DNA of 64,000 nt from Halomonas chromatireducens. GTDB lineage: Bacteria; Pseudomonadota; Gammaproteobacteria; Pseudomonadales; Halomonadaceae. Below are positions 5,074-34,718 of the stretch, in pieces. Position numbers and translations under genes: made by a program. The stretch's first letter is position 1. Every line of letters starts with the position of its first letter. The stretch spans positions 3,454,111 through 3,518,110 of the forward strand of contig NZ_CP014226.1 in assembly GCF_001545155.1 (NCBI RefSeq), read 5' to 3'. The notes below the pieces were generated by a model, which was not told the origin of the DNA, ran no database searches, and saw only the letters and a program-made list of their open reading frames with translations.

Positions 5074-5124
5074 GTACGCTGAACGAGCGTTATGAGTCAG
5101 CGTGTTGAGTGAGGAGGGCAGGAC

Positions 5125-6093: not shown

Positions 6094-6176
6094 ACCGGCA
6101 GGAACACTAATAACGACAACGAAGTATCACGACACCGTTAATCATCACGATAGCGGTCATTCAGGGAGCATCAGCC

Positions 6177-7118: not shown

Positions 7119-7149
7119 CGAGCGGTGCCCGCTGTGGAGGGTATTGATC

Positions 7150-7617: not shown

Positions 7618-7619
7618 CC

Positions 7620-11040: not shown

Positions 11041-11837
11041 AGGACCTCATGGACGGCGCACCGTCCACCCTGCATGGCACCGGTGCACTCGCGGCGCAGA
11101 TGGAGTTTCTGACAACCCACAAGGTGTCGGACTTCACCGCTGTCATCGATCCGCTGCTGTCCACAATGCAGGATGACTCCGCCTCGGCGGACTTCAAGGA
11201 CACGGTCTCGCAGGTACTGAACAGCAGCTCCCCGCGGATGGCGGATCTCTACGGTGAGGCTTATCTCGCCCACCTCATGGACCTGGTCTGGCGCAGCCGT
11301 GATGAAGAGGATGCCGAGGGTCCGGGGATGATGCTATGGCATGTCATGCGCCTGGCCGAGCACGCAACGGTCGTGGTCCGCCTGGTCGCCGAGGATTTCG
11401 ACGACCACGTCACGGACTGGTCGATGCATCCCGCCTCCGCGCTTGCCATTGAAAGCGGCATGACCCGGGGCCTGGAGCGCACCATAACCCGTGAACTGGC
11501 ATCGGTGGTCATGGGCAAGGCCATCGCAAGTCCGGTGCTGGACATGGATTACCTTGGGCCACACCTGAGCCGCGGCGGCACCCCGCTGTTCGATCTCCAG
11601 CAAAACACCGTTGCCGGCGTCATCGCGCTCTACGAGCCCACGGTGTTCGCCGGGGACAAGCCCGAGAGCTATCCCTTCCCGGTGGCGCCCTACACCCAGC
11701 CAATGCTTGCCCAGCCCGGCAGGTTCGCCAGCGAACCGGACGAAAAGGCCGAGTGGCTGGCGTTTCTGGAGCGCGTTGCCGCGTTGGGTGATCCGGACTT
11801 CAGCCCCGTTGCCGAGACGGCCCTGGCCTCATTCTGA
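11037..11837 (+). pseudogene. 3' fragment of an unrecognised gene fused to the flavoprotein remnant
   Basis: A coding-like frame, different from the flavoprotein frame, begins right at the break near 10990 (AETSTERQAAKALYTRR...) and runs to 11837. The first ATG, at 11037, gives 266 residues but has no usable ribosome site, and coding character extends upstream of it. I therefore read it as the tail of a longer gene that lost its 5' end. The product looks soluble and mostly helical, with segments such as GMMLWHVMRLAEHATVVVRLVAEDFDDH and LDMDYLGPHLSRGGTPLFDLQQNTVAGVIALYEP. I recognise no family. The antisense frames show no better candidate. Confidence 0.5.
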
Positions 11838-12068: not shown

Positions 12069-15000
12069 GTGAAAAAGATTGCGGCAACTACCACCTGCCT
12101 GCTGGCACTCCTGATGGTGGATGGCACGGAAGCCTTCCCCAGGATGGTCTTCGAGGAGGAGCCCAACGATACCCCCGAGCAAGCCCAATCGTTCCGTGGT
12201 GAAGCCCGCCTGGTGGGCGAGGTGTCGAGCGATGATCGCGACATGTTCCGCTGGGTGCTGGACGATGCCGAAACGGACCGTCTCTGGCAACTCGAGCTGC
12301 AGGGTGATTCGCCGGACGGTATCGAGGCACGTTTTTTCTGGCCCGCCGTGGAAGAGCCGGAGCCGAGCGGGGTGGCCGAATTCGGTGCCGCAGAGCCCGA
12401 AGAGAGTGCCGACGAGACGACGGAGTTGCTCAGTCTCGGCATCAGCGCCGACCAGCCGAGGCGGCATCGCCAGCAACTGATCGTCCCGCCAGGGGAGCAT
12501 CTTGTGAGCTTCCTGCCCCAAGGGGAGGGCGGTGAGTATCAGTTGACCTTGACCGAGGCGGGGCGCATGCGCATCCGCGGCCAGGTTGGCCCCGACGAGG
12601 CCGATGACCTGGAAGTGACCCCCGGGCGGCTGTGGTTCTTCCACCTTGATGTCGCCGAACATGCCATCCCTCTGGTGCCGGAGGATGAGGCGGCCGAATA
12701 CCTGTGGCGACTCGATCTGCTCGGCGAGCTGGGCGTGTCGCTGGAGGCCTGGATCGAGAGTGACACCGGTGAACGACTCGCCGAAGTACACGGCGACTCC
12801 CCAGTGCAGCAGCAGTGGAGCCGCCTGGATCTCGCCGGGGGAGGGCGCCTGCACCTACGTAACCCGCAGGGAGATGCCATCGGGCGCGTGGGGCTGGAGC
12901 TGGAGGAAGACGGCCAGCGTCCCGCGCCGCGAGACGATGACCCGGAGGCGCAGGAGACGATGGAGGCGGAACCGGAGGCCGTGGCCACCTCGGAAGAGGA
13001 GGCTCTGTGGTTTGCCCTCGGCGAAGCCGTGACGCTGGATCTGATTCCCCGCCAGCGCCACTACCTGGCCTTCAGCCTGGATGAGTCAGCGCCCGGCCAG
13101 ACCCTGGACGTGATTGGCGATACTGACCGCGATATCGATGTTTGTCTCAGTCGCCATGACGACCGCGACCCGGTGTGCCGAGAGGGGCCTGCCGAGGCGC
13201 TGTTCGCCCAGATGCAGCTTCCCGCTGGCGACTACCTGCTGCAATTGAGATTGTCCCGGCGCGCCGATGGCCCTGTGCCCACCGAGGTGCGGCTGAGCGA
13301 GACGGAACTGCCGGATCGGGACGGCTGGGTGAGCGAACCCAATGACCAGCGTGACTGGGCCGCGGTGCTGAGACCCGGAGTCGTCCGCCAGGGCCGGCTA
13401 GAAAGCGGCGATACCGCCTGGTTCGAGTTGCTGGTCGGAGGTGAGACCCAGGTTTGGGAATTCCTGGCGGAGGGCGATCCACTCGAGCGCCTGGCCCTTT
13501 ACCGTGATGGTGATCGCCGCCCCTTCCTCGACAGCAGGCAGTCTCGCCGCGGTGACCCGCTGCAGCAGCGGCGCTTGAGCCCGGTGCGCCTGCTGCCGGG
13601 TCGTTACCAGGTGCGTATCGAGGGGGAAAATACCGATTATCGCCTCCAGGCCGAGCCGCTGGGTCGGCCCCAGCCCGGCAGGGAGATGGAGCCCAACGAC
13701 ACGCCCGAGGAGGCCAATCCGCTATGGCTGGGCGAATCCGTCGAGGGACATTTCCACAGCGAGGATGACGCGGACCATTTTCACTTTCATCTGCCCGGCG
13801 AGAACCGCCTGGTGCTGGATGTCGAGCCGCCGTCGGAAGGGCGCCTCGAGGCCCGGCTGTTCTGGCAGGGAAATGAGGTACTGCGCACCCTCGACCTTGA
13901 GGAGGCCGCGCGCATCAGTCGGAGGCTGCCCCCCGGGGACTATACGTTGAGGCTCGTCGGGGATGGCCCCTCCCAGGAACCCTACCGCGTCCGGCTGGAC
14001 ATCGGCGATCCCTGGCACCATCAGGGTGCGGTGGGGCTGGTGCGGAATCTCGAGCAGGCGCCCCTGGTCCCCAGGGACGGGGTTATCGATGAAGAGACGG
14101 GCGGCGTGGATGATCCAGAGGGCTATCTGCGACTTCCCGTCACCGAGCAGGCGCGTACCCTGCATGTCGAGGCACGGAGCCTCGGCGATCGAGTCCGCTT
14201 CGTGAATGCCAAGGGCGATGAGCTCGAGATCGAGGAGACAGACGAGCGGCGCCGCTATGCGGTGACCGTGCCGGCAGGCGAGCAGTGGTACCTCTGGGCG
14301 TCCATCAGTCGTCGCATGAGCAGCCTCACGCTGGAGGACCCGGCGCAGCCGTACACACCGGAGACGGCGCCCATCACTGCCGAGCTGGAAAGTGAGAGCG
14401 CTCGCCTCCCACCCTTCCTGCCCCATGCCCAGCGCCTCGAGGCCCGCCTGACGGTCCGCAATGAGGGAGAGGAATCCCTGACGCTGCCCCTGAAGGCCCA
14501 CGCCAGCCATTCGGGCTGGTCGCTCGACGGGTTGCCCGAGTCACTCTCCCTGGCCCCCGGGGAGGGGCGTGAAGTACCCCTGACCTGGACCCTGCCGCCC
14601 GAGATGCTGGAGAGCGATCCCCTGTCGCTCTTCGTGGCGGTGGGCGAGCACAGTGTGCGGCATGATCTGATAGTGGACCCGTCGATGGCGGCGCTGGATC
14701 CGCAACCGGCGCTCCCCGTCCCCGAATCGCTCGATGGAATGGTCGACCTGGCCTGGAGTGCCCTGGGGGCGCACTTCGTCGACGCCGAGAGCGGCGAGCC
14801 GGACAGTGACCTGGCTGGCCTCGCCAGTGACGGGCACTTCCTGATCGACGGTATGGCCAGTGCCGCCAGCTCCATCGAGGTCGACGCCGACCCCGGTGAG
14901 GCCTTGCCGCCGATCCGCCTTGCCGGTGAAGGGGGCAAGGTGCATGGCCTGGCCTTCAATCAGCGCTCGCTGCATGAGCATAGCTACCGCTGGCGGAAGG

Positions 15001-17468
15001 TCGAGATCGCCTTGGGCGAGTCCCGGGATACGCTGGAGACCCGGATGACCGTCGAGCTGGACAGCCGTGACGGCGAGCAGTTCTTCCCCCTTGATGCCCC
15101 GGTTGAGGCGCGCTACGTACAGCTGCGCCCTCTGGCGATCTTCCTCGAAGAGGGCGAGCGCCGACGCTCCCGCCATGGCAGCGGCGAGCTGCGTGTGCTT
15201 GGGGAGCCTTCCGGAGAGCTGGCCGAACGGCGTCATGACCTGCTGGATCGCGACCTGGGCGGGCACTGGCTATACACCCTGCCGGATATCGACAGCCTCT
15301 ATGGCTTCCAGGGGCAGCGCTACACCCATCGAGGCGTGACCGGCGAGCGCGGGGTGCGTCGGGGACAGCGTATCAGTGACGAGCGCATCGAGATGGTCTT
15401 CGCCTTCCTCCAGCATCGGGCGGCGCGGATCGACGAACTGCGCTGGATCGAGAACCTCGACTGGGACGGCCTGCCGGTGGAGGAGGTTTCGGTATACACC
15501 TCCCTCGAGTCACCGGTGGGCCCCTGGGAGCACCGGGCCGACTGGACCCTGGAGCGTGACGGAGAGGGTCAGGCAATTCTCTCGCTGCCTGACGCGCCGC
15601 GGGCTCGCTACCTGCGCCTGGTATTCGATGAGCCCGCCGTGCCCGAGGACGAGCGCCGAGCCAGCTGGCGGATTCCCGAGGCCCTGCAGGCCTTCGAGGC
15701 CGATGCCCTGGGCAGCGGTCGTTCGGTTCTCGGCCACTGGGGACTGGACAAGCCTCGTGGGCCGCTGGAAGTGGAGCAGGGCGGTGACGGCCTCAGGGTG
15801 CGAGAGATCGAGGACTCCGATAGCCACGCCGAGGCCCCCTATTCCCTGGCGGATCGAGTGGTGGGGCGGGTCGATGAGCCGGGGGATACCCGTCATTATC
15901 GGGTGAGCCTTGATGCACCGGACAATACCCTGGCCTTCGAGCTCGAGGAGCCGGCTCGGGATCGCCTCGTGGTCACCCTCAGCAATGCCGATGGTGAAAC
16001 GGTGCCTCTCGACTGGTCATCGGTCGGCGGGGGGCGCCGTCAGGCCGAGGCGGTGGATATCCCTGCCGGGGATTATCGTCTCACGGTCAGCGAGCCGCCG
16101 CGCTCCATCGTTTTCCTGTGGGATGGCAGCGGCAGTATTTCCGAGCACCAGCCGGCGATCTACCAGGCACTGAACCGCTTCGCCGAGGGGTTGGAGCCCG
16201 GCAAGGAGGTATTCAACATGCTGCCCCTGGGAGGCCCCCTGCTGATCAATGGCTGGGCTGACCACCCTTCCCAGGTTGCCCAGACCCTCGCCGCCTATGA
16301 CGACGACTTCAATAGCTCGAATTCGGAGCCCGCCCTCGAACTGGCCAGCCGCGCCCTGGCCCAGCGGGAGGGGCAGCGGGCGATCTTCCTGATTACCGAT
16401 GCCGAGCAGACCGGTCGCGACCTGGAGGCCTGGGAGACTCTGGCCCGGGTTCGCCCGCGGGTCTTCACCCTGGAGATCACCCATGGTTCCAGCCGGGACA
16501 CCGAGGTGAATCGCTGGTACCAGAACCAGATGCTTAGCTGGGCCCAGATCGCCGATGGGCGCTATCGCTATACCGTGGATCGTACCGACCTGATTCGCGG
16601 CTTCGAGGCGGGCATGCGTGAGCTGCGCCAGCCCAGCGAGTTCGCGCTGGCGGTGGAGCGGCGCTACCAGGAGCCACCCGAGCCCGGCAGCCTGAGGGTG
16701 ATCAGCGCCGACCCCGAACAGCCGGCGGTGGCCGGCGGAGTGGTGCATCTGATCTTCGATGCCTCGGGCTCCATGCTGCGACAGATGGAGGGCGGGCGGC
16801 GCATCGAGGTGGCGCGGCGTATCGTTCAGCAGACCCTGGACGAGCGCATTCCGGAGCAGGTGCCGGTTGCGCTGCGTGCCTACGGCCATACCGAGCCCCA
16901 TAGCTGCGAGACCGAGCTGCTGGTCGAGCCCCGTGCGGATAATCACGACGAGGTGCGCGAAGTGGTCTCAGGTATCCAGGCCATCAACCTGGCACGTACG
17001 CCGTTGGCCGCCTCGCTGGATGCCGTACTCGATGACCTTTCCGATTTCGCGGGTCAGCCTCGCCTGGTGGTGATGCTTACCGACGGTGAGGAGACCTGTG
17101 ACGGGGATGTGGCCGCCTCCGTGGAGGCACTGATCGAGGAGGGGGTGGACGTGCGCCTCAATATCGTCGGCTTCCATATCGACGAGATCGGCCTTCAGGC
17201 CGAGTTCGAGCGCTTTGCCGCCCGTGGCGGCGGCGAGTACTTCGATAGCCAAGACGGCGATGAGTTGATTGCCGGCCTGTCCCAGGCCTTGGCGGCCACC
17301 TGGCGGGTACTGGACAGTGATGGGAGCGAAGTCGCCCGGGGACGGGTGGATGACGCATCCATCGAGCTGGACGTAGGTGAGTACGAGTTGGTGGTGGTGA
17401 CTCAGGAGGGTGAGCGGAGCAAGACCTTCCAGGTGGCGCCCAGCCAGTCCGTCGAGCTGGGACTTTGA
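12069..17468 (+). CDS. Giant exported PPC/discoidin-like/double-VWA protein A
   Basis: Protein of 1799 residues with a signal peptide ending near residue 22 (TEA|FPRM). PPC-like beta domains are announced by EPND motifs near residues 31, 421 and 539. An Ig-like stretch follows (about 768-861), then two discoidin-like segments (about 890-1040 and 1110-1200) and another PPC-like segment. VWA domain 1 starts near 1349 (DGSGS MIDAS motif, later LITDAEQ). VWA domain 2 covers about 1558-1745 with a full MIDAS set: DASGS, the Thr of ARTPLA, and LTDGEETCDGD. A small C-terminal beta domain closes it. GTG at 12069 is preceded by AAGAGGGG. It is the first gene of a tight run: the next begins 14 bases after its stop. 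No membrane anchor is seen, so it is periplasmic or secreted. Its function is unknown. Confidence 0.85.
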   Translation: MKKIAATTTCLLALLMVDGTEAFPRMVFEEEPNDTPEQAQSFRGEARLVGEVSSDDRDMFRWVLDDAETDRLWQLELQGDSPDGIEARFFWPAVEEPEPSGVAEFGAAEPEESADETTELLSLGISADQPRRHRQQLIVPPGEHLVSFLPQGEGGEYQLTLTEAGRMRIRGQVGPDEADDLEVTPGRLWFFHLDVAEHAIPLVPEDEAAEYLWRLDLLGELGVSLEAWIESDTGERLAEVHGDSPVQQQWSRLDLAGGGRLHLRNPQGDAIGRVGLELEEDGQRPAPRDDDPEAQETMEAEPEAVATSEEEALWFALGEAVTLDLIPRQRHYLAFSLDESAPGQTLDVIGDTDRDIDVCLSRHDDRDPVCREGPAEALFAQMQLPAGDYLLQLRLSRRADGPVPTEVRLSETELPDRDGWVSEPNDQRDWAAVLRPGVVRQGRLESGDTAWFELLVGGETQVWEFLAEGDPLERLALYRDGDRRPFLDSRQSRRGDPLQQRRLSPVRLLPGRYQVRIEGENTDYRLQAEPLGRPQPGREMEPNDTPEEANPLWLGESVEGHFHSEDDADHFHFHLPGENRLVLDVEPPSEGRLEARLFWQGNEVLRTLDLEEAARISRRLPPGDYTLRLVGDGPSQEPYRVRLDIGDPWHHQGAVGLVRNLEQAPLVPRDGVIDEETGGVDDPEGYLRLPVTEQARTLHVEARSLGDRVRFVNAKGDELEIEETDERRRYAVTVPAGEQWYLWASISRRMSSLTLEDPAQPYTPETAPITAELESESARLPPFLPHAQRLEARLTVRNEGEESLTLPLKAHASHSGWSLDGLPESLSLAPGEGREVPLTWTLPPEMLESDPLSLFVAVGEHSVRHDLIVDPSMAALDPQPALPVPESLDGMVDLAWSALGAHFVDAESGEPDSDLAGLASDGHFLIDGMASAASSIEVDADPGEALPPIRLAGEGGKVHGLAFNQRSLHEHSYRWRKVEIALGESRDTLETRMTVELDSRDGEQFFPLDAPVEARYVQLRPLAIFLEEGERRRSRHGSGELRVLGEPSGELAERRHDLLDRDLGGHWLYTLPDIDSLYGFQGQRYTHRGVTGERGVRRGQRISDERIEMVFAFLQHRAARIDELRWIENLDWDGLPVEEVSVYTSLESPVGPWEHRADWTLERDGEGQAILSLPDAPRARYLRLVFDEPAVPEDERRASWRIPEALQAFEADALGSGRSVLGHWGLDKPRGPLEVEQGGDGLRVREIEDSDSHAEAPYSLADRVVGRVDEPGDTRHYRVSLDAPDNTLAFELEEPARDRLVVTLSNADGETVPLDWSSVGGGRRQAEAVDIPAGDYRLTVSEPPRSIVFLWDGSGSISEHQPAIYQALNRFAEGLEPGKEVFNMLPLGGPLLINGWADHPSQVAQTLAAYDDDFNSSNSEPALELASRALAQREGQRAIFLITDAEQTGRDLEAWETLARVRPRVFTLEITHGSSRDTEVNRWYQNQMLSWAQIADGRYRYTVDRTDLIRGFEAGMRELRQPSEFALAVERRYQEPPEPGSLRVISADPEQPAVAGGVVHLIFDASGSMLRQMEGGRRIEVARRIVQQTLDERIPEQVPVALRAYGHTEPHSCETELLVEPRADNHDEVREVVSGIQAINLARTPLAASLDAVLDDLSDFAGQPRLVVMLTDGEETCDGDVAASVEALIEEGVDVRLNIVGFHIDEIGLQAEFERFAARGGGEYFDSQDGDELIAGLSQALAATWRVLDSDGSEVARGRVDDASIELDVGEYELVVVTQEGERSKTFQVAPSQSVELGL
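16665..17388 (+). repeat. VWA-2 repeat, copy 1
   Basis: A stretch of about 724 bases encoding the second VWA domain of protein A. It aligns without gaps with 22280-23003 in the next gene at a constant offset of 5615 bases and, by eye, very high identity. Sequence on the 5' side is much less alike. Confidence 0.85.
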
Positions 17469-17482
17469 TCCGGGAGCAGGAA

Positions 17483-20400
17483 ATGGCGATGACGACAGCC
17501 TGTCGTGACGGCAACAGGTGCCTCAGGGGCGGAATGGCAATGATCAGCCTGCTGGCTGTGGTGCTGTTGGCGTCTCTGGTAAGCGGTGCGTCGGCCTACG
17601 CTTACCCCCGAACCCTGGTGGCCGAACCCCTGGCTGAGGGCATGCCGCCTTCCCAGGGCTTTCGCGGGGCAGCACGTATCCTGGGAGCGCTGGCCGAGGG
17701 AGAGCGGCACGCCTTCACCTGGTCGATCGATGACCGTGAGGTGGGTTACCTGTGGCAGATATCGCTGCGCGCCACCACCGCTGAGCGATTGCGTGTCAGT
17801 CTGCACCCTGACCAGGCGTCGGCAGGGCAAGGGGAACCGCAGGGTGTGACGACGTTTGGCGAGGCGCCGGCGACGTCGACATTTGGCACCGCCGATGAGG
17901 CGTCGGGCGACGCGTCGCATGCGTCTGACCCGGCCGCCGCTGAGGGGCGCGCGACCGAGAAGCCGCTGCTGACCCTTGAGGCCACGCCCGATACCGCCGG
18001 TGATCGCGTTACCTCCCTGCTGGTGTCCCATGGCGACTATCGGATCGAAGTCGAGACTCAGGGAGGGCAGGGCGAATACCAGCTGACCGTTGAGCCTGCC
18101 GGTGAGGTCAGCCTGCATGGCACGGCAGACGCGCCATCGAATGCCGACGCCCTGGTCGTGGGCCCGGGCCGCGACTGGTTCTATCAGCTCAATGCATCGC
18201 GCCTGCAGCTCCCTCTTGAGATTGATGAGAACGACGCCCGGCTCTGGCGACTCTCCCTGCTGACCGAACTTGGCCATGCGGTAAGGGCGCAGCCGGTGGA
18301 TGCATCGGACGAGCCCCTGGTGGCGTCCACGGGGCCTCTGCCAATGAAGCAACAATGGGACCAGCTGGCCCTGGAAGAAGGCGCCGCACTGGCCCTGGCG
18401 CGTGATGAGGAAGGTGAGGCCATCGGCCGGGTGCGTGTGCGCCTCGAGCCGGGCGAGGCCTTTCCGGAGCCGGCGCCTGAGCCGGTGGCAGCGACACGGG
18501 AAGACGCACTGGCTCTGCCCGCCCAGGCCACTCAAGTGCTTGAGCTGCTGCCCGGTCAGCGTAGCTACCTGGCCTTTGAGCTCAATGATGAAGAGGCTCA
18601 AGGGCAGGGCTGGGCGCTGGATCTGCTTGGCCCGGAGGATCCGCCGATCGAAGCGTGCCTGGCGGACGCCCTGGGTCAGGAGGCGATCTGCCGCACGGGC
18701 CCGCGGGAGGCGCTCTTCGATCGTCTGCGCCTCGACCCTGGCCGTCACTACCTGGCGCTGACACCGTCAGAGCAGACGGAAGAGGCTGGCGTCGCGGTGG
18801 AGGTGATTCGCCGATCCGTTCCTCGGCCCACTTCACAGGAAGTGGCGGAGCCCAACGACAGCCGCGAGGTGGCAACCGCCTTATCGCCAGAGCAAGAATT
18901 ACAGGGCACCTTCAATGGCCCGCGAAAGGGGGTTTTCCGGCTCGAGGTGCCGCGCTCGGATCAGGTGTGGCGCATTGTGGCCAGTGGCGATGGCCTGGAG
19001 GACCTTCGCCTCTACCAGTCCGGCCATTCGGGGCGCTCCCATTTCGCCAGATCCCAGGCCTACGGGCCTGTAGGTGAAAAGGAAGGCCTCGGTTTTTCTC
19101 GTCTCGATCTGATGGCGGGCACCTATTACCTGGAACTCTCCGGGAGCGACAGTGACTATCGAATCCTTGCCGAGCGTCTGGACGCCGATGAAGAAGGCTG
19201 GGAGCGCGAGCCCAATGACACCCGCGGCCAGGCCAATGCGCTGACTTTCGGAGGGGTCATGCGTGGCGATCTTCACGACGCCTCCGACGAGGACTGGTAT
19301 CGGTTCACCCTGCCAGGCGACAACCGTATACGGCTGAAGATTACCCCGCCCGATGCCGGAAGTGTTCAGCCCATTCTCTACCGGGATGAAGAGCGTATTG
19401 CCGCCGTGCATCCACGTCGCGCATTGGATACATCTCCTCTGATACTCACCGGTCGGCTGCCGGCCGGTGACTACTATCTCTGGCTGGGAGATCGGGAGCC
19501 AGCCGGTCCTTATCGAGTCCGGCTGGATTTACAAGCGCCCTGGGAACCGCTTGCGGGGCATGCCATGGCGACACGCCAAGAACTGGCTGTCGAGCCGCCA
19601 CCTGACGGTCGCATTGAGCTTCCCCACAGCGGATTGGGTAGCGACTATCAGTGGTTCCGTCTCCCGGTGGGCGATAGTCCCAGAGAAGTGAGAATCAAGC
19701 GGCTGGGGGACAATCGACTGAGCCGCGCCCATGTCGAGCTGATCGATGAGCAGGGTGACGCGCTACCCACCCGGGAGGTTGAGACAGCGCGTGACAATGC
19801 CGAAGCCGTGGCGGTACAGATTCCCGCACGGGCAAAGGTCTACCTGCGCGTCAGCAGCGCGCGCCTGGGGCATATCGACCTGATCCTCGAGGATCCCCTG
19901 ATCGCAGAACGACAGGCCGAATCGCAGAGGCACCACGATGCCATCGAAGCCCGCTTCGAGGCAGACGGGCCCCTGACCGCCTGGCATGACGCTCCCCAGC
20001 GGCTAGAAAGCCGACTGGTGCTGAGCAACGGCGCCGAGGCGCCGGTGACGCTGCCGCTCGAGGCCCACGCCAGCCATGCCGGCTGGCGCATTGACGCGCT
20101 GCCCGACACCCTTACCCTCGATCCCGGCGAGGAGGTCGTTCTGACCCCGGCCTGGACGCTGCCGGCCGGACTGGATGACGAGGCGCCGGTGTCACTCTTC
20201 ATCGGCGTTGCGGGCCAGACGCTAGAGGCGACCCTCGCTGTCGGGAGCACCGATACCGAAGCCGGCGTCAGCCTGGGGGACGTGGCCCTGCGCGACCGGG
20301 CTCAAGGGCTGGTGGACCTGGCCTGGTGGGGTCTTGGTGCCTACTTCGAAGACCCCGACAGCGGGGAGCCGATCATTGATGATGCCACTAGCGGCTGGGG

Positions 20401-23095: not shown

Positions 23096-25502
23096 ACTCT
23101 GGTGGCTGCTGGTGATGATGTCGTTGAGCCCGCTGGTCTCGGCGAATCAGATGTGCCTGGGAACGGCGGGCATGGATAAGAGCCATTCACGCTACCTGGA
23201 GCAGCGGATCGTGACGCTGGATCGCGCCGTTCGTGAGGCTTATACCGAGCTGCCCTGGCAGGAGCTGAACGTCGGACAGGCGCAGCAGGCGCTGGGTGTG
23301 GAGCCCCGAGCCCTCTTCGAGTGGGTGCGTGATGAGACTCGCTGGCTGCCCTATGCAGGAGAGCTGCGCGGGGCGGACGGGGTGATGCAGGATCGTATGG
23401 GCTCCAGCCTGGATCGTGCCCTGCTGCTGGCGGCGCTGATGGAAGAGGCCGGACACACCGTGCGCCTGGTCCGGACCGACCTGTCCGAGGAGGCCCTGAA
23501 GCGCCTCGAGTCGACCTGGGCCGGCGAACCGGTGGCCAGGCGGCCGGATGGCCCCATCGAGATGGACCTCTCTGACGCGTCCATCAAGGCCCTGGCCGAG
23601 CGGCTCGATAGCGACCCCGACGCCATCGCCGAGTCGCTGCGGGAACAGCGGGAGGCGGCCGAAACGCGACAGGCGCGGCTGCTGGCCGACGGTCGCCAAC
23701 AGGCCAAGGCGCTGGAGGCGTTGATGGACGGGGCCCTGGAGGCAGTTGATGGCACGGATGCTGCCCCGACGCATCACTGGTGGGTGCAACAACGCACAGG
23801 CGATGGCTGGGCGGACTTCGACCCTGCGCTTCCGCAGCAGGCCGCCGGTGAGCGCCTGGTCGCCGAAGGGGAGGTCGAGCATGTATACCCGGAGGCGCTG
23901 CCCGACGACGTCCGGCACTGGTTGACCGTCGAAGTGGTGGCGGAGCAGCTCCATGATGACCGCCTGAGCGAGGCGGTAGCCTTCTCCCACCGGCTGCCTG
24001 CTGCCGAACTGCTGGGGCAGCAACTGCACCTGGAGCTCTACCCCATGGCGCTACCGTCACCCCAGGCGCTGCTTGATGGCAGTCATGAACTGGATGCCCT
24101 GCCTGGCGCGCTGTTCGACCAGGAGCAGTGGGTGCCCTATCTGCGCCTGGGTGACAGCCTGGAGCGCCAGGACGGCATCATGGCCGACGGTAGTGTCGTC
24201 GACCTCGGATCGGAGGCCGGCATGGCCGGTGCCTTTGGCGAAGCCAGCAGTGCCCTGGGCGAGGTGGGCATCGGTGGACTCGGTGCCGATGAACCAGACA
24301 CCCCGCCGGAGCTGACGGCCGTGATGGTGCGCTTCCATGTCGAGGCGCCGGGCCGAGAGACCGACATCGTAGAGCGCCCCATGATGGATCTGATCGGCCC
24401 CGCACTTCGCGCCGCGGGCGTCGAGGCCTTCGAGTTCGATGATGCCCTGCGCGAGCAGCGCGCCGTCGAACTGCTGAGCACCCTGGAGGTGCTCGGACAG
24501 AGTACCTGGGTGCCCCCCGCGCAGTTGGCCGCCTGGCGCTACGAGGGGCTGATGGACAATCGGCAGTCGGCCTTGGCCGGGGCTTACCTGGCTGCCCAAC
24601 GTGATGACAGCTTTATCGGCGAAGCGTTGGAAGCGCGCAGCACCCGCCGCTCCACGCTGGACCAGCTCGCCGCCATGCGGCTGGCCTACAGTCCGCACCC
24701 CGAGAGGGTCGCGCTGACGCGCCTCAACCTGCTGGGCTATGTGACGCTGATGGAGTTCAAGGGGGGGGAGTATCGGCGCCGTGAGGGCTTCGACATCCTC
24801 GATAATCGGATTGCGGTGCCTGACGGTGATGCGGTGGCCGAGACCCGGCTGGCCCAGGGGGCATTGGATACTCTGCTGGAGGCCGAGCTCGCGGTGGAAG
24901 CGCGTGCGGCCCTGGGCAACACTGCTCGCGCCTTCCTGCACGACCTCGGCGAGGGAGTCGACTGGCGTCGCGTGGACAGCCTGGACGGCTTGGCGGACCT
25001 CGACTGGCAACCGGATGCCGACCTCAAGGCGCACTTCGCGACGCACCTGAACACGGGGCAGGTGCTGCTGCTGCCCGACGCGCCGGCTCGGGAAGAGGCG
25101 CCCACCTGGTGGCAGCTGGACCCCGCCACCGGTGACCTGCTCGGCTACGGGCGAGACCGACGTGGGCAGTACATCGAGGGGATTCTGACGTTGATGAGTG
25201 CAGGCGATAGTGCCATGGGCGCGGTGGGCATGGTGCAGAGCATCTGGGACTGCCTGTTTACCTCGAGCGATCCGCTCTGCTGCACCCAGGATGCCGCCGC
25301 CCAGGAGATGATTGGTCGCGCCGTCAGCGCCGGCTTGGGCGGTCTCGCCGAGGCCCATGACATCAACATCATCATAGGGCGCGAACTCATCTCCGGAGGG
25401 GCCTTCGACCGGCTCAATTCAGCGGGCATCAGCAAGGCGGCCGGTGATGTGGCCGGCGCCGGCGCCGAGTTCATCGTGGATTCCTGGGGCCGCTGCAACT
25501 GA
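23085..25502 (+). CDS. Exported transglutaminase-like protein without the catalytic cysteine
   Basis: Protein of 805 residues with a signal peptide (LLVMMSLSPLVSANQ). Residues about 65-260 follow the bacterial transglutaminase pattern: ALFEWVRDETRW, then GSSLDRALLLAALMEEAGHTVRLVR where active enzymes have GNCxDxxxLLxALLRxxGI, and HHWWVQQRTGDGWADFDPALP with the His...Asp part. The cysteine position is Ser or Leu, so peptide cross-linking is not expected. The middle is helical. The C-terminus is glycine-rich with a cysteine cluster (WDCLFTSSDPLCC) and a final WGRCN. GTG 23085 overlaps the VWA-B stop by 11 bases. It is probably periplasmic and may be a binding partner of the VWA proteins, but that is inference from linkage. 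Confidence 0.75.
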   Translation: MKTRLWWLLVMMSLSPLVSANQMCLGTAGMDKSHSRYLEQRIVTLDRAVREAYTELPWQELNVGQAQQALGVEPRALFEWVRDETRWLPYAGELRGADGVMQDRMGSSLDRALLLAALMEEAGHTVRLVRTDLSEEALKRLESTWAGEPVARRPDGPIEMDLSDASIKALAERLDSDPDAIAESLREQREAAETRQARLLADGRQQAKALEALMDGALEAVDGTDAAPTHHWWVQQRTGDGWADFDPALPQQAAGERLVAEGEVEHVYPEALPDDVRHWLTVEVVAEQLHDDRLSEAVAFSHRLPAAELLGQQLHLELYPMALPSPQALLDGSHELDALPGALFDQEQWVPYLRLGDSLERQDGIMADGSVVDLGSEAGMAGAFGEASSALGEVGIGGLGADEPDTPPELTAVMVRFHVEAPGRETDIVERPMMDLIGPALRAAGVEAFEFDDALREQRAVELLSTLEVLGQSTWVPPAQLAAWRYEGLMDNRQSALAGAYLAAQRDDSFIGEALEARSTRRSTLDQLAAMRLAYSPHPERVALTRLNLLGYVTLMEFKGGEYRRREGFDILDNRIAVPDGDAVAETRLAQGALDTLLEAELAVEARAALGNTARAFLHDLGEGVDWRRVDSLDGLADLDWQPDADLKAHFATHLNTGQVLLLPDAPAREEAPTWWQLDPATGDLLGYGRDRRGQYIEGILTLMSAGDSAMGAVGMVQSIWDCLFTSSDPLCCTQDAAAQEMIGRAVSAGLGGLAEAHDINIIIGRELISGGAFDRLNSAGISKAAGDVAGAGAEFIVDSWGRCN

Positions 25503-25512
25503 GGAGACATCA

Positions 25513-26934
25513 ATGAAACAGCCAAGCATGCGCAAGGCCGCACTGGGCATGACGGGGCTGCTGGTCCTGGTCGGACTGGTTGCGACGAAGCCTGCGGCGG
25601 CTCAGCCGCCCTGCGTCGAGGCGGTGCAGGAGCGACTCCCCGCATCGGGCTGCAACCGCGCTTTCACCCTGCACGTCAAGGAGATGGCCTTCAGCGATGA
25701 GCTGAACGGCCGGACGCCGCCGCCCGGCCAACGCTGGATCACCCTGGAGGTACGCTTTGACAGCTGGATGCCCAGCGACCTGGTGTTCGGTCTGGGCTAT
25801 CCGGAGCCGTTGCTGGTGGCCTCGCTTGCACGCCAGCTTTATCTGCTGGTGGACGACCGGCAGGTGGTGCGGTCGACCCTGTCGGAGGCATCGGACCTGG
25901 AGGATGAGTTCGTTCTGCCTCGATCCGGCGACCGGCGCCAGGGCCAGGTCGCCTTCGCTGTGCCCGATGAGCCTCTGTCTCAACTCTCGCTGCATTACTA
26001 CCACGACCAGTATGCGCCCATCGTCGTGCCACTTCTCGGCGAGCGTGCCCAGCCCGACGAGGAGCGCGATGCGGCGAGTCGGCAGGAGGGCCACGACCTC
26101 TTCTCGCTGGGCGTTCACGGTGTCAGTCGGCATGACCGCTGGCATGGCGAGTCGGCTCCCGAAGGCATGCAGTGGCTGGTGGTGGACCTGCGCGGCCAGG
26201 GGGAGTGGCGCACGCCGGTTGACGCTCGGGCGCTGGATGCGTCCGCCGAGTCCGGCGCCGAGGTCTCGCTGCGCCGGGTCATGGAGTATATCGAGGCCCC
26301 GGGGCTGCTGCAGGCGGTAGTCGACGGTAGCCATGCTTACGTGCGCGATCTTGAACTCAGCACCCTGGCGGGAGACCCCGCCCTGCTGCCCGATGCCTGG
26401 GCCGGCGGCCAGGCGGTGTTCCCGGTGCCGAAGGATGCCGAAAGCGTGGAACTCATTGCCTATATGCCGGAGTTTCGCGGCACCAATATCTCTTCGGAGA
26501 TCCGCCCCAGCCTGCGCTACCTGCTGAAGGGAGAGGCCGTCACCGGGATGATCGGTGAGGCCCTCGTCGACATCGAGGATGGCCCCATCCGCTTTCGGGT
26601 GCATGGCCTTGAGTTTCCAGATGAATTTGCCGGCCATCTGGCCAGCGAGGAGGAGAGCCTGCTGCTGGTGGAGGCCTCGATGACGAATCTCAGCGGGGTG
26701 GGCGGCATGATGCCGGTCAGCCAGCGGCTGAGCCCGAGGGGGGTGGAAGGAGAACTGGTCGCAGCCTATCAGCGCGGTCCTCTCGTGCTTGAGGAGCCCT
26801 TCTGGCTGCCTGCCGATGATGAGCCTCGTCGCTTTCAACTGCTCTATCGCTTCGAGTCACCTGCTGAAATATATGAGTTCGAGTATGGCGGTGTCTCGGT
26901 CACCGAGCGGGTCAGGCTCCCCGTGGAGCCCTGA
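25513..26934 (+). CDS. Exported protein of unknown function in the VWA cluster
   Basis: Protein of 473 residues with a clear signal peptide (MTGLLVLVGLVATKPAAAQ). The rest is predicted mostly beta: repeated patterns such as RWITLEVRFDSW, QWLVVDLRGQGEWRTP and SLLLVEASMTNLS resemble one another and suggest three related beta-sandwich units of about 140 residues, each starting with a phrase like FTLHVKEMAFSDE, LFSLGVHGVSRHD or IRFRVHGLEFPDEF. I do not recognise a named family. ATG 25513 follows GAGGAGAC by a suitable distance and lies 10 bases after the transglutaminase-like gene, so both probably share a transcript. Confidence 0.7.
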   Translation: MKQPSMRKAALGMTGLLVLVGLVATKPAAAQPPCVEAVQERLPASGCNRAFTLHVKEMAFSDELNGRTPPPGQRWITLEVRFDSWMPSDLVFGLGYPEPLLVASLARQLYLLVDDRQVVRSTLSEASDLEDEFVLPRSGDRRQGQVAFAVPDEPLSQLSLHYYHDQYAPIVVPLLGERAQPDEERDAASRQEGHDLFSLGVHGVSRHDRWHGESAPEGMQWLVVDLRGQGEWRTPVDARALDASAESGAEVSLRRVMEYIEAPGLLQAVVDGSHAYVRDLELSTLAGDPALLPDAWAGGQAVFPVPKDAESVELIAYMPEFRGTNISSEIRPSLRYLLKGEAVTGMIGEALVDIEDGPIRFRVHGLEFPDEFAGHLASEEESLLLVEASMTNLSGVGGMMPVSQRLSPRGVEGELVAAYQRGPLVLEEPFWLPADDEPRRFQLLYRFESPAEIYEFEYGGVSVTERVRLPVEP

Positions 26935-27009
26935 CCGAAGATGAGTCCCAGCCTTGGGGCGAACTGTTGACCTTGACCGGATCGCTATCACTGACTTCAG
27001 GAGATGAAG

Positions 27010-28101
27010 ATGTCACATCGCAATTCATATGGCGCACGGTCCCGTGCAGGCGTCTGGGGCGGGGCTTTCGTTCTTGGGTTGGTGGCAGGTGGCTGGCTTG
27101 TCCCCGCTATAGGAAACACGACGCCGGACTGGACGGGGGCCGAGCTGCTGCATGAGTTCGAGCTCGAGGGAGAGAGCGTCGAGCGCTTGGCGCTGTCACC
27201 GGATGGCGATCGTGTTGCGATTGCCGCACATGGGAATCTCGAAATACGCGAGGCGTCGACCGGTGAGCTGGTTCATCAGTTGGAGGGCCACCACTCTCCA
27301 GAGGTGGACCGGCCGCTGCCTGTCACCGGGCTGGCCTTCAGCCCCGATGGCGGGAGCCTGGTGAGCGCCAGCTGGAATCCGGGCGTGGCGGCCGACGCGT
27401 CGCTCATGCTATGGGATCTGGCGACAGGCAAGCTGCGTCGTGCCCTGGCCGGAGGACAGGGGTGTCGCGAGGTGGCCTTTTCCGACGATGGGGCCAGCGT
27501 ATGGGCTGCCTGCGGTGCAGACGTGCAGCGCTATGTACTGGAGACAGGTCTTGTCGTCGAGCGGGCAGAGTCTTTCCCTGCCGAACTGCTGCATGGGCCT
27601 GATGCCGAAACCGCGGCAGATGCGCTGCCGATGCCCAGGCAGGGCCCTGCCCATGCGCTGGCCTTGAGCCAGGACGGCATGCGGCTGGCCTGGGCGGGAA
27701 AGCCGCCGACCTTCCCCGCACCGCTGGTGCGAGTGTGGCAGGCCGAAGCATCTCCGGCAGGTGGTGGCACACTGCCGGCCAACGACTATCAGCTCATCGA
27801 GCTGCCAGAGGTGGAAGCGACTGACGATCCAGTGGCCCTGGCGCGAAGCCACTACGGCATGCGCGAGTTCAACCCGGTCACCGTGGAGACGGTCACCCAG
27901 CGTATGCGCCAGGACGGCGATATCCTGGTCACCCTGAGCCTGGAGGGCCTCAAGGATGATTCGGTTCGTGCCATTCGCTACCGGCTGCTGTTTTCTCCTG
28001 CGGCCGATGGGCGCTGGCAGCTCGGTGAAGTCGGGCGACAGCAGCAGTGCCGACGAGGGCCCACCGAGCCGGATACCTGGTCCACGGCGCTATGCCATTG
28101 A
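27010..28101 (+). CDS. Membrane-anchored or exported beta-propeller protein
   Basis: Protein of 363 residues. An N-terminal hydrophobic segment (AGVWGGAFVLGLVAGGWLVPAIG) acts as signal or anchor. Residues about 45-250 contain WD40-like blades: RLALSPDGDRVAIAAHGNLEIREASTGELVHQLEGH, GLAFSPDGGSLVSASWN...LMLWDLATGKLRRAL and EVAFSDDGASVWAACG. The C-terminal 90 residues form a separate small domain ending GRQQQCRRGPTEPDTWSTALC. ATG 27010 is preferred because AGGAG at 26999-27003 is 6 bases away; the ATG at 27004 would touch it. There are only three or four recognisable blades, so the propeller may be incomplete. Role unknown; placed with the VWA cluster by strand and spacing. Confidence 0.68.
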   Translation: MSHRNSYGARSRAGVWGGAFVLGLVAGGWLVPAIGNTTPDWTGAELLHEFELEGESVERLALSPDGDRVAIAAHGNLEIREASTGELVHQLEGHHSPEVDRPLPVTGLAFSPDGGSLVSASWNPGVAADASLMLWDLATGKLRRALAGGQGCREVAFSDDGASVWAACGADVQRYVLETGLVVERAESFPAELLHGPDAETAADALPMPRQGPAHALALSQDGMRLAWAGKPPTFPAPLVRVWQAEASPAGGGTLPANDYQLIELPEVEATDDPVALARSHYGMREFNPVTVETVTQRMRQDGDILVTLSLEGLKDDSVRAIRYRLLFSPAADGRWQLGEVGRQQQCRRGPTEPDTWSTALCH

Positions 28102-28197
28102 TACCGGCCGGCGTCGGCTGGGAGCGGCACTCCCCCTCCAAACGAACGGGGTCACGTCGCCCCAGCCTGGCTAACCTAGTGGGATCAGCCGATAGCA

Positions 28198-28207
28198 TTA
28201 GCGCTAA
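28198..28207. promoter_or_regulatory. 10-base palindrome before the membrane-protein gene
   Basis: TTAGCGCTAA, a perfect palindrome 34 bases before the ATG at 28242, within a 140-base gap. Possible operator; no partner site was found. Confidence 0.22.
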
Positions 28208-28241
28208 ACAACGACAACACTCATCCTCAGCAGGGGGCGAC

Positions 28242-29222
28242 ATGTGGGATTTCAAGATTGGCCAGGCCCTTGGCCTGATGCTGAAGACAATGCCTTTCAT
28301 TCTCTTTCGCCTTGCCGTCTACTTCGGCGTAGCACTGGCCTACGTACTGATGACCGGTGTCGGTGCCGGCGTGGGGTGGGGCGTCGGGGGCCTGGGCGAC
28401 GAGGGCTTCCGCGCCGCTTCCACCTTCTGGGGCGGCGTCGTCGGCTTCGGGATCGTCGGCGCCATCATGTACATTCTGCGTGAGTACCTGCTGTATATGG
28501 TAAAGGCGGGCCATATTGCCGTGCTGGTGGAGCTGATGGACGGCAAGCCGCTGCCCCAGGGACGTGGCCAGATCGAGCATGCCAGCACCGTGGTGAAGGC
28601 GCGCTTTGCCCAGGCCAGCGTGCTGTTCGGCGTGGACCAGCTGATCAAGGGCGTGCTGCGTGCCATTACCGGCCTGGCTCGCGGGATATTCCGGCTGCTG
28701 CCGATTCCCGGCGCCCGTCAGTTCCTCCGGCTCGTTGAAATGTTCCTGCGCATCGCCGTGGGCTTCATCGACGAGGTGATCCTGGCCTACTGCATTCGCA
28801 CCCGCTCCGACAACGCCTGGGCTTCCTCCCGTGATGCGCTCGTGCTCTACGGTCAGAATGCCAAGCCGATGCTGAAGAATGCCGCCTGGCTGGCACTGAT
28901 CGTCTACGGCCTCTCTTTCCTGGTCTTCCTGGTCATGCTGGCGCCCGCTGCCCTGGTGGCCTATCTCATTCCTGGTGGCTGGTCGGCGACCGGGGTCATC
29001 GTCGCACTGCTGTTCGCCTGGAGCGTCAAGGTGGCGGTACTGGAGCCCTTTGCCATCACCTGCATGATGCAGGCGTATTTCAAGGCCATCGAAGGCCAGC
29101 AGCCGGATGCCGAGTGGGAGGCCAAGCTGGATGGCATGTCGGCCAAGTTCCGCAAACTGAAGCTGCGTGCCACTCAGACGACGACAGGTGACGACGCGCA
29201 AGGAGCAGAAGCTGCGCGGTGA
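28242..29222 (+). CDS. Polytopic inner-membrane protein of the VWA cluster
   Basis: Protein of 326 residues with about five or six hydrophobic segments: near residues 15-45 (glycine-rich GVGAGVGWGVGGLG follows), 60-85, 165-190 (weak), 205-235 and 240-270. A helical charged tail ends the protein. I do not recognise the family with certainty. The ATG at 28242 is preceded by CAGGGGGC. The 140-base gap upstream contains a TTAGCGCTAA palindrome at 28198-28207, so it may have its own promoter. As the only polytopic membrane protein of the cluster it could anchor or export the others; that is a guess from context. Confidence 0.68.
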   Translation: MWDFKIGQALGLMLKTMPFILFRLAVYFGVALAYVLMTGVGAGVGWGVGGLGDEGFRAASTFWGGVVGFGIVGAIMYILREYLLYMVKAGHIAVLVELMDGKPLPQGRGQIEHASTVVKARFAQASVLFGVDQLIKGVLRAITGLARGIFRLLPIPGARQFLRLVEMFLRIAVGFIDEVILAYCIRTRSDNAWASSRDALVLYGQNAKPMLKNAAWLALIVYGLSFLVFLVMLAPAALVAYLIPGGWSATGVIVALLFAWSVKVAVLEPFAITCMMQAYFKAIEGQQPDAEWEAKLDGMSAKFRKLKLRATQTTTGDDAQGAEAAR

Positions 29223-29278
29223 CACCGCGTGGCCGGGAAATGCGCTGAGAGCAGAACAATAAGGCATTAAGGTGCGAT

Positions 29279-30295
29279 ATGAGCATGAATCGGGGAAGCC
29301 AAGGTACATTGCTGGCAGGTATGGCGCTTGTCGGCCTGGGGTTGTTGACGGCATGCAATGATGAATCCGCTTCCAGTGCCGTGCAGTCAGACAACGGCGC
29401 TTCGCAGCAGGGCGGTGTGCAAAGCAACGGCGACGGTGAGCTTGCTGGCCTGCTGGAGAGTGTGGAAAGCGGCGAGTCGATGATCAGCATCAGCGGTGCC
29501 GCCACCTCGACAGGTGAGTACACCACGGCGGATGACCCGCGCTACGGCGGTGTCAGCAACGATATCTTTCGGCCTGCGCTGGGAGGTGGCTCATCCCGTC
29601 GAGGCAGCAATGCCGAAGGGCCGTATGTCATTTCAATCTACACCGATGCGACCCACGAAGATGACCCTGACAATGTTGTGCGTGCCTGGGTCTCGCTGGT
29701 GCTGCCGGCAGACGCCGAGGCAGGAAAGCGCTACGAGGTGGCGAGTTTCGCCGACGCCGAGGACCACCAGGTGCAAGCCCATGTTCGGGGTGACGGCATG
29801 GGGTGGTCATTCTCGCGGCAGGTCTCGGGCAGTGTTTACCTGGAATCGTTCGGGGAAAGGGTCAGTGCTGCCTGGCAGTTGGAGGCCGCCGATGGGCGTG
29901 GCGAGGAGGCAGGCCGAGTGACGAGCGAAGGGGCGGTCAGGGAACTGCCGCTGACGCTGCAGTCCGAGGCGGAATATGAGCTCACCGTCAACGGGGATAC
30001 CGAGTCAGCCCTGTCCCGTATCACCGGTCGCGACAACATGCTGATCATCGGCAATGGGATCTATCTCTACCTGCCTGAAGGGGCGACAGCCGGCAGCTAC
30101 CCGGTTCAGGCAGATCGGGATGACGACGCCGTGCGCGCCCAGTTCTCCCGGCATGACATCGAGGAGGTCAGCGGAGAGCTGACACTGGTGGCCAACGGCG
30201 AGCGCTACGATGCCGAGTTCCACATTGATGCCAGTGGGGAGGATGAGGTGGCGCTGGCCGGCGATCTGCGCTGGTTTGTGCTGAATGAGGAGTGA
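29279..30295 (+). CDS. Lipoprotein of unknown function
   Basis: Protein of 338 residues with a lipoprotein signal: a hydrophobic stretch then lipobox LLTAC with Cys26. The next about 40 residues are Ser/Gln/Gly-rich linker. The rest alternates short beta strands and acidic turns, for example YEVASFADAEDHQVQAHVRGDGMGWSF, and the second half repeats a pattern of ELTVNGDTES and ELTLVANGERYDAEFHI. No family recognised. Ends 122 bases before the next gene. Likely attached to the inner face of the outer membrane. Membership of the VWA cluster is inferred from strand and position. Confidence 0.7.
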   Translation: MSMNRGSQGTLLAGMALVGLGLLTACNDESASSAVQSDNGASQQGGVQSNGDGELAGLLESVESGESMISISGAATSTGEYTTADDPRYGGVSNDIFRPALGGGSSRRGSNAEGPYVISIYTDATHEDDPDNVVRAWVSLVLPADAEAGKRYEVASFADAEDHQVQAHVRGDGMGWSFSRQVSGSVYLESFGERVSAAWQLEAADGRGEEAGRVTSEGAVRELPLTLQSEAEYELTVNGDTESALSRITGRDNMLIIGNGIYLYLPEGATAGSYPVQADRDDDAVRAQFSRHDIEEVSGELTLVANGERYDAEFHIDASGEDEVALAGDLRWFVLNEE

Positions 30296-30317
30296 GCCGG
30301 CGACCTGAAACGGTTGA

Positions 30318-30395
30318 CGCATGGGTAGGAAGGACAGGGTAGGACGGGATAGGAAAGACGGGGTGGGCAAGCCTGGATAGGCAAGATTGGGTAGA
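30318..30395 (+). repeat. Degenerate tandem repeat of a GGGTAGG word
   Basis: Between two genes lie six copies of a 7-base word: GGGTAGG, GGGTAGG, GGATAGG, GGGTGGG, GGATAGG and GGGTAGA. Successive copies are separated by 3 to 7 bases of AAGGACA/CAAGATT-like spacer, giving an irregular period of about 10-14. The array ends about 20 bases before the next gene's ATG, which has GAGGA upstream. Confidence 0.6.
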
Positions 30396-30417
30396 CAAAA
30401 CAACGAGGAAAACGAAT

Positions 30418-31047
30418 ATGCGCAGCAAACGCTCTCTTGGTGTTGTCCTGCTGGGTGCCACGCTGGCAATGCCATTCACCGCTTCAGCGCTGGCCGATGA
30501 GGTCGTCGAACAGATCGAACTGGGTCTCGAGCTGTATCAAGAGGAGGATTATGGCGGGGCGGTCACCGAGCTGGAGTTCGCCATCAACGACATTCGCAAG
30601 CTGCTCTCGGGACGCATTGCCGAAACCTTCCCCGACGCCCCCGAGGGCTGGACCGCAGGTGAAGCTGAATCCGCCGGCGGTGGCGGCGCGGCGGCCCTGA
30701 TGGGGGGCGGTGGTTCCATGCTGCAGCGCAACTATCGCGAGGACGAAGGGGAGGGACGCCTGGAAGCGTCTTTGATGATCGACAACCCCATGGTCCAGGG
30801 CATGGCTGCGATGTTCCACAATCCCGCCATGATCGCTGCCCAGCCCAACATGGAGCGTGTTCGCATGGGACGCGAGTCTGCCATCGTCAAATGGGAGGCG
30901 GATCGCTCCCGGGTCGAGGCGACGCTGCTGCTCGACGGACGGATCCTGATGCAGGTCAAGGGGCAGGGAATCGATTCGCCCGATGTCGCCGTCGATCTGC
31001 TCAAGGCCTGGGACCTGGCCGAGGTGCGTGCAAGGGCGGCACGGTAA
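30418..31047 (+). CDS. Small exported protein of unknown function
   Basis: Protein of 209 residues with a signal peptide cleaved near ALA|DEV (residue 27). The segment after it (QIELGLELYQEEDYGGAVTELEFAINDIRKLLSGRI) looks like a helical TPR-style hairpin. A glycine-rich hinge (SAGGGGAAALMGGGGSM) separates it from a C-terminal alpha/beta part that contains MVQGMAAMFHNPAMIAAQPNMERV and ILMQVKGQGIDSPDVAVDLLKAWDL. No named family comes to mind. It is the last gene before a 423-base gap and prkA. Confidence 0.7.
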   Translation: MRSKRSLGVVLLGATLAMPFTASALADEVVEQIELGLELYQEEDYGGAVTELEFAINDIRKLLSGRIAETFPDAPEGWTAGEAESAGGGGAAALMGGGGSMLQRNYREDEGEGRLEASLMIDNPMVQGMAAMFHNPAMIAAQPNMERVRMGRESAIVKWEADRSRVEATLLLDGRILMQVKGQGIDSPDVAVDLLKAWDLAEVRARAAR

Positions 31048-31470
31048 AGCCGGCTGCCACGTCATAAAGGTCATTCTTGCGCCCGGTCAGCGAAAGCACG
31101 ACGGACGTCAATCAGTCTTCTGTTTTGGCCGGCACCAGAGGGCTGGGCAAGCGTCTGCGTTGAACCGGGCGCTGAATATTGGGCTAACGTGAAGAAAGGT
31201 CCCGCTGATGCGCGACATCCAGCGGAGGTGGTCTTCGCTGCGCTTGCCAGCCTGGTGAGGCGTTGACTCACGCATTGCGTCTATCCATCGTTAAATCAGA
31301 ATAGATTCCTTCATCGAACCCTCTGCAACTCCTGCGTTCTCATTGAGTAGTCATTCACTGCGTTGACAGTTCCCCGGCCGCTCCGCCGGAAGCTGACTAG
31401 GCTGATGAGTAACCCGGTAAGGTCATCGAGTGTGGCGGTGACCATCAGGGTGGGCAAACAGGAGGCTTCG
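31048..31470 (+). promoter_or_regulatory. Leader region of the prkA-yeaH-spoVR operon
   Basis: A 423-base stretch with no credible gene. It carries a TTGACA at 31363-31368, but no good -10 sits 16-18 bases after it; a GC hairpin (CCGGC...GCCGG around 31375-31390) lies there instead. In enterobacteria the homologous yeaGH operon uses RpoS and RpoN, yet I could not find a clean sigma-54 GG/GC element. GGAGG at 31461-31465 is the prkA ribosome site. Confidence 0.4.
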
Positions 31471-33393: not shown

Positions 33394-33417
33394 CCGGCGC
33401 TGGCCTGGGAGGTCACC

Positions 33418-34701: not shown

Positions 34702-34718
34702 TGCGGACAGGAGGCAAC

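Follow-up and report, generated by a model that had tools for sequence, protein, structure and literature searches.

In a 64,000-nucleotide stretch of the 3.97-Mb Halomonas chromatireducens genome (contig NZ_CP014226.1, positions 3,454,111 to 3,518,110; hereafter the window), eight genes of the plus strand, called A to H (12069-31047), encode exported or membrane proteins. Their conserved core appears to be a two-gene pair. One partner is a giant protein with von Willebrand factor A (VWA) domains, present here as the paralogues A (12069-17468) and B (17483-23095), and the other is C (23085-25502), an exported protein of transglutaminase-like fold in which serine occupies the site of the catalytic cysteine. 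The pair recurs in distant bacteria, and C behaves together with its neighbor D (25513-26934) as an exchangeable cassette, apparently swapped by recombination between close relatives. Our preferred explanation, held tentatively, is a Sec-exported adhesin or recognition complex of the cell envelope, with a LapG-like but catalytically dead partner that would tether the giant and a cassette that would set specificity.

Nineteen adjacent giant-C pairs were read in 18 genomes. Apart from the window, they were found in nine other Halomonadaceae (including Vreelandella, Franzmannia, and Billgrantia), in Methylonatrum and Thioalkalivibrio, in a gammaproteobacterial metagenome-assembled genome (MAG) with two pairs, and in two members of other gammaproteobacterial families (G958 and G953). 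More distant hosts are the alphaproteobacterium Indioceanicola and two MAGs, one of Nitrospirota and one of Acidobacteriota, the contig of the latter ending within the giant gene; the MAG G025 (SKVX) harbors an additional, fragmentary pair. The case of Indioceanicola is an independent test of the pairing, because the plasmid collection was queried with the giant alone and C was found afterwards, directly before the giant and overlapping it by 4 nucleotides (nt). The giant comes first in 14 of the 19 pairs and C in five, and the pairing is therefore not one frozen arrangement. The total of 19 includes genomes added after a first recurrence scan, in which the pre-VWA part of the giants served as the query against genome contigs and which yielded 20 loci: 14 with the pair, two extra giants of genomes that have it (L059 and L066), and four fragments of one MAG. 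The cluster has its closest relatives in Halomonadaceae, and A shares 92-94% identity with a protein of Halomonas alkalisoli.

The pair is rare. Among 369 Gammaproteobacteria, the giant profile matched 13 genomes, three of them with long matches (the window genome, G953, and G958), and the C profile matched 25, with long matches in the window genome and G958, the C protein of G953 being read beside its giant. Matches to the C profile were obtained in 20 of 148 Nitrospirota and 18 of 199 Acidobacteriota genomes, at full length only in the seed genome of each. When C was used as a single query, it matched three of 398 genomes of the phylum, at full length only in the window's own genome, and nine of 97 relatives, five with long matches. 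Weak profile matches in G731, G883, and G114 were dropped, as no giant was present in the stretches read. A mobile-element origin was likewise rejected, the giant being found in one megaplasmid record and C in none by sequence search.

The giants of the various pairs are about 1500-1960 residues long. In A, a signal peptide and PPC-like modules precede a discoidin-like segment from around residue 940, a first VWA domain (VWA1, about 1345-1520), a second one (VWA2, about 1558-1745), and a short C-terminal domain. An initial annotation of the locus had described both giants as PPC/discoidin-like/double-VWA proteins. This description holds for VWA2, which is over the Pfam cut-off in A and B, and, at the level of profiles, for PPC: a profile of seven giants matched collagenase domains of the PDB (best 5iku, E 8.2e-12). 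VWA1, on the other hand, remains below the Pfam cut-off of 27 bits, slightly so in A (26.9 bits) and further in B (19.6 bits). The Pfam scan of A and B returned VWA models, a sub-threshold PPC, a weak MG4, and nothing else; neither protein itself matches a discoidin model, and this part of the description comes only through homologues, with F5/8C over the cut-off in the Nitrospirota giant (E 5.2e-9) and below it in the gammaproteobacterial MAG (residues 947-1051, E 3.3e-4). The metal-ion-dependent adhesion site (MIDAS) of VWA2 (DxSxS, T, D) is complete in all 18 of the 19 giants that extend that far, and all 19 giants have DxSxS in VWA1, where a Ser stands in place of Thr near the second position. 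The motif is conserved at the sequence level, and binding of a divalent metal is a putative property of these domains.

A and B share 47% identity. At third codon positions, their identity is 27-53% over residues 1-1500 and climbs to 84% at residues 1601-1700 of A, and it is because of this climb that the VWA2-coding segments of A (about 16640-17310) and B (about 22260-22920) bear signs of homogenization by gene conversion. The homogenized region may also supply homology for the cassette exchange described below.

The C proteins of the pairs have 746-878 residues. The match of C to the Pfam model Transglut_core (20.4 bits) is below the 23-bit cut-off, while a transglutaminase/papain-like fold is supported by structure comparison (VIA). 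By Foldseek alone, neither C nor D matched a PDB structure at E ≤ 0.001, so that the fold calls are those of VIA's own fold list, and a sequence search of solved structures returned no match for C, for F, or for a long form of D. In the C protein of the window, serine stands at the cysteine position (GSSLDRA, residues 106-112), and His231 and Asp246 are retained. Over 18 aligned C proteins, the catalytic Cys is found in none, its position being taken by Ser, His, or Ala; the His is present in 13 and the Asp in 15. The earlier label of a cysteine-less transglutaminase-like protein is thus right about the fold and the nucleophile and wrong about the rest of the chain, which contains five cysteines. 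No hydrophobic segment of C exceeds the threshold used. The first C profile matched the second half of the protein in all four giant-partnered proteins outside the seed (at least 58 bits, or nearly full length) and gave less than 10 bits there in eight unpartnered proteins of Acidobacteriota, one of them truncated by its contig. This second half is probably the best candidate for contact with the giant.

Matches limited to a transglutaminase stretch of some 70 residues, mostly in longer open reading frames (ORFs), were excluded from the count of C proteins; they make up most of the C-profile matches in Gammaproteobacteria and, the seed aside, in Nitrospirota. Several of these matches have a Cys one position off the nucleophile site, that of L119 looks canonical, and a G(N/S)xxD-like helix motif is frequent among the long ORFs that match the C profile. 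Six partial long ORFs that were scanned gave Transglut_core only, and an RHS identity of the long ORFs is unsupported.

The evidence for the C-D cassette (23085-26934) comes from close relatives, in which it differs while the flanking genes retain 90-97% DNA identity. Compared with H. alkalisoli (G492), DNA identity is 93.6% for A, 94.6% for B, 90.2% for E, 96.8% for F, 91.0% for G, and 95.7% for H; the C gene, in contrast, aligns over 4% of its length, and D over 67%, at 75.5%. The drop starts at about 23.09 kb, at the end of B, and stops near 26.9 kb. In the MAG G025, a third type of cassette, in which C and D give no DNA alignment, lies between B (93%) and F (88%). Pairwise identities among 13 genomes, with the N-terminal part of C used for G025, correlate at 0.93 for C and D and at 0.24 for C and F; without the most divergent type (three genomes), the values for the remaining 10 are 0.87 for C and D, 0.44 for C and F, and 0.30 for C and the neighboring giant, all of these being descriptive figures, as genome pairs are mutually dependent.

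The AlphaFold2 model of D (mean predicted local distance difference test 83.7, predicted template modeling score 0.81) agrees with the three β-sandwich units initially proposed for it, which we read from the strand pattern and from fold comparison of the first and last units. In the divergent type of cassette, D occurs in a long form (L062:17706-19940, L065:19585-21897, and L020:9190-11409) extended at the N-terminus by about 300 residues with a conserved C-F-Q-C motif; this extension gave no Pfam match in the two proteins scanned and no PDB sequence match. E (27004-28101) is exported or membrane-anchored through one N-terminal hydrophobic segment, and its proposed β-propeller is weakly founded, with a single WD40 repeat above the Pfam cut-off. 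F (28242-29222) is a polytopic membrane protein with six hydrophobic segments. Most of ten aligned F sequences begin at an MWDF-type start, here the likely ATG at 28242, and F is more conserved than C and D, with 51-98% identity among 13 genomes. G (29279-30295) is a lipoprotein with the lipobox LTAC and is absent from some of the relatives' loci read, and H (30418-31047) is a small exported protein with a partial homologue adjoining the pair in G953. D, F, G, and H have no match at or above the curated cut-offs of Pfam and NCBIfam.

All eight ORFs are open, and, as first annotated, the products look exported or membrane-bound, with a signal-peptide-like start in A, B, C, D, and H, the lipobox in G, and hydrophobic segments in E and F, according to calls made from N-terminal hydrophobicity and inspection rather than by a trained predictor. 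B lies in a TTG-started ORF from 17465, for which the ATG at 17483 is the likelier start, and D probably starts at the ATG at 25513. With starts corrected, the successive gaps from A to H are 14, -11, 10, 69, 140, 56, and 122 nt. Because the first three are so short, within the range of -11 to +14 given at the outset, A to D look like one operon, and co-transcription of E to H with them is possible either way. A scan of the coding strand found no terminator-like sites, and sigma-70-like sites were at chance level.

The initial annotation had grouped all eight genes into one system. This view was too broad, and the eight-gene unit is rejected as a conserved system because the gene sets nest. 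The giant, C, D, and F occur together in Methylonatrum and Thioalkalivibrio, and a larger set, to which E, G, and H often belong, was found only in Halomonadaceae among the loci read. F gave long matches in 17 of 90 genomes of the genus (18 at threshold), and of these 17, all with stretches read, seven have the giant, C, and D, nine have F without A to D, and in one (G002) the end of the contig interrupts the locus. The recurrence expected of the whole cluster thus applies to the giant-C pair, adjacent even in distant bacteria, and full linkage of the eight genes gives way to nested sets. The original list of genes also omitted up612, an exported-looking protein of 610 residues that adjoins a giant in several relatives.

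The envelope complex that we tentatively favor is built on what sequence or model displays directly, namely the genes, the domain and fold matches, the lost cysteine, the recurrent pairing, and the replacement of the cassette. The giants A and B would be rod-shaped, with PPC and discoidin-like modules followed at the end by two VWA domains, and the MIDAS motifs of these domains would mediate ligand binding via a divalent metal. Since the LapG-type fold is kept and the nucleophile lost, C should bind without cutting; it would hold a peptide segment uncut and tether either the giant or a ligand of the giant to the cell surface, possibly through the second half of C. D would accompany C as an adaptor or specificity subunit, and C-D recombination would alter specificity while the giant and the membrane parts stay constant. 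Binding, tethering, surface location, adhesion, and specificity are all properties that we infer for the complex. A more ambitious version, in which the locus represents an undescribed and widely scattered two-component surface machine, made of a metal-dependent giant and a LapG-fold pseudoenzyme, with the swapped pseudoenzyme-sandwich cassette as its specificity determinant, a changeable head on an otherwise constant body in the envelope of Gram-negative bacteria, seems doubtful. No description of the gene set was found in open-licence papers, a body of literature judged mostly by titles and the beginnings of abstracts and excluding the surveys PMC7159879 and PMC8195603.

Several observations weigh against this account. 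Within the cluster, no gene for secretion or for anchoring in the outer membrane was recognized. Not every giant has its own C: A of tandem pairs lacks one, as do the additional giants in L059 and L066. Conversely, eight of the 199 Acidobacteriota carry a C relative of 618-764 residues that matches chiefly the first part of C, and there is no giant near it in the stretches read; the giant profile was also empty in these eight genomes, a weak negative as it had no positive control. Among the non-seed Acidobacteriota with a C match, stretches of 15 of the 17 genomes were read (all but G1088 and G1169), with no giant in any, and these relatives leave a strict dependence of C on the giant unsupported. 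With a broader profile, the second half of C was weakly matched in two of the eight unpartnered proteins (24 and 18 bits), and the contrast with the partnered ones is therefore only of degree. As D and F identities also correlate, at 0.67 among 10 genomes, the co-variation of C and D probably reflects shared ancestry in part, and exchange of sequence would be insufficient by itself as proof of specificity. Finally, since most C proteins retain the His and the Asp, some residual chemistry is conceivable.

The locus might instead be composed of two or three separate neighboring loci, with the pair and D as one system inserted beside an older set made of E to H and a divergently oriented kinase unit. 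This is a genuine possibility, compatible with the envelope complex as far as A to D are concerned, and the two readings do not exclude each other. Six of the nine F-bearing genomes without A to D have E or H, the loci read in Methylonatrum and Thioalkalivibrio showed neither E nor H, and the gaps between D and H are 56-140 nt, all of which argue for separate loci. However, Thioalkalivibrio and Methylonatrum likewise have F close to the pair, the latter also G, and an H-like protein adjoins the pair in G953.

An envelope-maintenance function in saline-alkaline stress, in which the exported proteins would stabilize or monitor the wall and outer membrane, switched on by the linked kinase and regulator and acting with the downstream PrkA-DUF444-SpoVR stress genes, is rather unlikely. 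The kinase unit combines a HisKA kinase with a receiver-LuxR regulator and an exported protein of Oxidored_molyb-like type (domains taken from one example), and its presence upstream of the locus in 14 of the 17 F-bearing genomes speaks for such a role. The unit is, however, missing from the window locus, and the other two genomes have ended or broken contigs; a 171-residue protein of the unit has relatives of 39% and 27% identity elsewhere in the window genome. PrkA is immediately downstream in eight of the 17, including the window, where it follows H by 315 nt, but it is not adjacent in the other nine as far as their stretches were read. The named hosts presumably come mostly from saline or soda habitats, going by their names; the sampling of Halomonadaceae is itself skewed to such habitats. 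Support by analogy comes from the Pseudomonas operon that encodes RloB, an inactive transglutaminase, and acts in osmotic stress tolerance (PMC12239564). The stress function leaves the C-D exchange unexplained.

That exchange would be accounted for by a polymorphic conflict system, contact-dependent or phage-related, in which the giant would display C-D as a diversifying module of effector/protection or receptor type. The abrupt replacement of C-D among close relatives and the co-variation of their identities fit this idea, as do polymorphic toxins with N-terminal inactive transglutaminase domains (PMC3482391). Such a system is nevertheless improbable: C and D have no toxin, immunity, or RHS match in Pfam or NCBIfam, the variation spans most of C instead of a short C-terminal tip, and the giant was not matched in phage records. 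Lastly, C as an active enzyme with an alternative nucleophile, such as the serine that accompanies His231 and Asp246 in the window, is most improbable, as the position holds Ser, His, or Ala among the 18 proteins and His or Asp is gone in several.

Around the cluster, the PrkA-DUF444-SpoVR genes occupy 31363-36272 on the right. To the left are an AraC/receiver-type regulator and a Tad/Flp pilus operon (2726-8903) with T2SSE, two T2SSF, TPR, TadE, and Tad proteins; two Tad proteins used as queries were unmatched in the relatives' stretches read. At the left edge, a truncated HI0933-like flavoprotein ORF (10168-11040) is followed, in an overlapping frame, by the last 280 or so residues of up612 (10990-11837, plus strand, start approximate), which are fused to unrelated sequence in an ORF of 10299-11837, and the segment 10168-11837 looks like a rearrangement scar. 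In H. alkalisoli, an exported-looking protein of 833 residues with the motif HELAHxxGLPH is encoded between the kinase unit and A (L032, about 2654-5155, minus strand); the motif marks the protein as a likely zinc metallopeptidase. In L059 and L066, the extra giant lies downstream of H and is followed by a protein of about 170-180 residues, a relative of which adjoins F in Thioalkalivibrio (L064). The Acidobacteriota relatives of C (L170-L177) lie near peptidase- and amidohydrolase-like genes, several with a lipoprotein-like ORF of about 245 residues, in what appears by eye to be a separate conserved neighborhood.

The freeing of giant adhesins by LapG-type proteases is a well-known way of surface release. 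The partner of the giant in the LapA/LapG system, in which a giant RTX adhesin is served by a periplasmic BTLCP cysteine protease, has the transglutaminase/papain-like fold in common with C. LapG, however, has a catalytic Cys-His-Asp triad, whereas C lacks the nucleophile and has no BTLCP Pfam match. LapA has RTX repeats and is secreted by the type I pathway, while A and B match neither feature and have, by inspection, a Sec-type N-terminus and PPC/discoidin-like domains. No GGDEF or EAL match that would denote a counterpart of LapD, the c-di-GMP receptor in control of the protease, was present among the scanned neighbors, no genome-wide search having been made. In LapG-type systems, the protease gene lies beside that of the giant adhesin, which may bear a VWA domain (PMC9430717). 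The resemblance of the cluster to LapA/LapG thus seems to be one of logic and fold, membership of the family failing on the catalytic residues and on the RTX and type I features.

Polymorphic RHS toxins have, like C, a transglutaminase domain without catalytic residues behind a signal peptide (PMC3482391), but they combine it with RHS repeats and a C-terminal toxin, whereas C stands alone, has a second half of its own and a VWA giant as partner, and gives no RHS or toxin match. RloB of the Pseudomonas Rlo operon, an envelope-stress operon, has a catalytically dead transglutaminase domain whose predicted location is on the periplasmic side (PMC12239564). That domain is fused to seven membrane helices, in contrast to C with its lack of an over-threshold hydrophobic segment, and the cluster has no aspartic-protease or ATP-grasp match. 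Compared with the extracytoplasmic β-sandwich proteins YcdA/YxkC/YjhA and MPT63, D has three sandwiches and no Pfam or NCBIfam family match; the present analysis supplies names and boundaries for D, F, G, and H, proteins outside the coverage of these databases. Because natural cassette exchanges supply allele pairs in near-identical backgrounds, the role of inactive transglutaminase domains in bacteria would become directly testable. If true, a dead LapG-like protein paired with its giant would follow a different logic from that of LapG itself, to hold instead of to cut.
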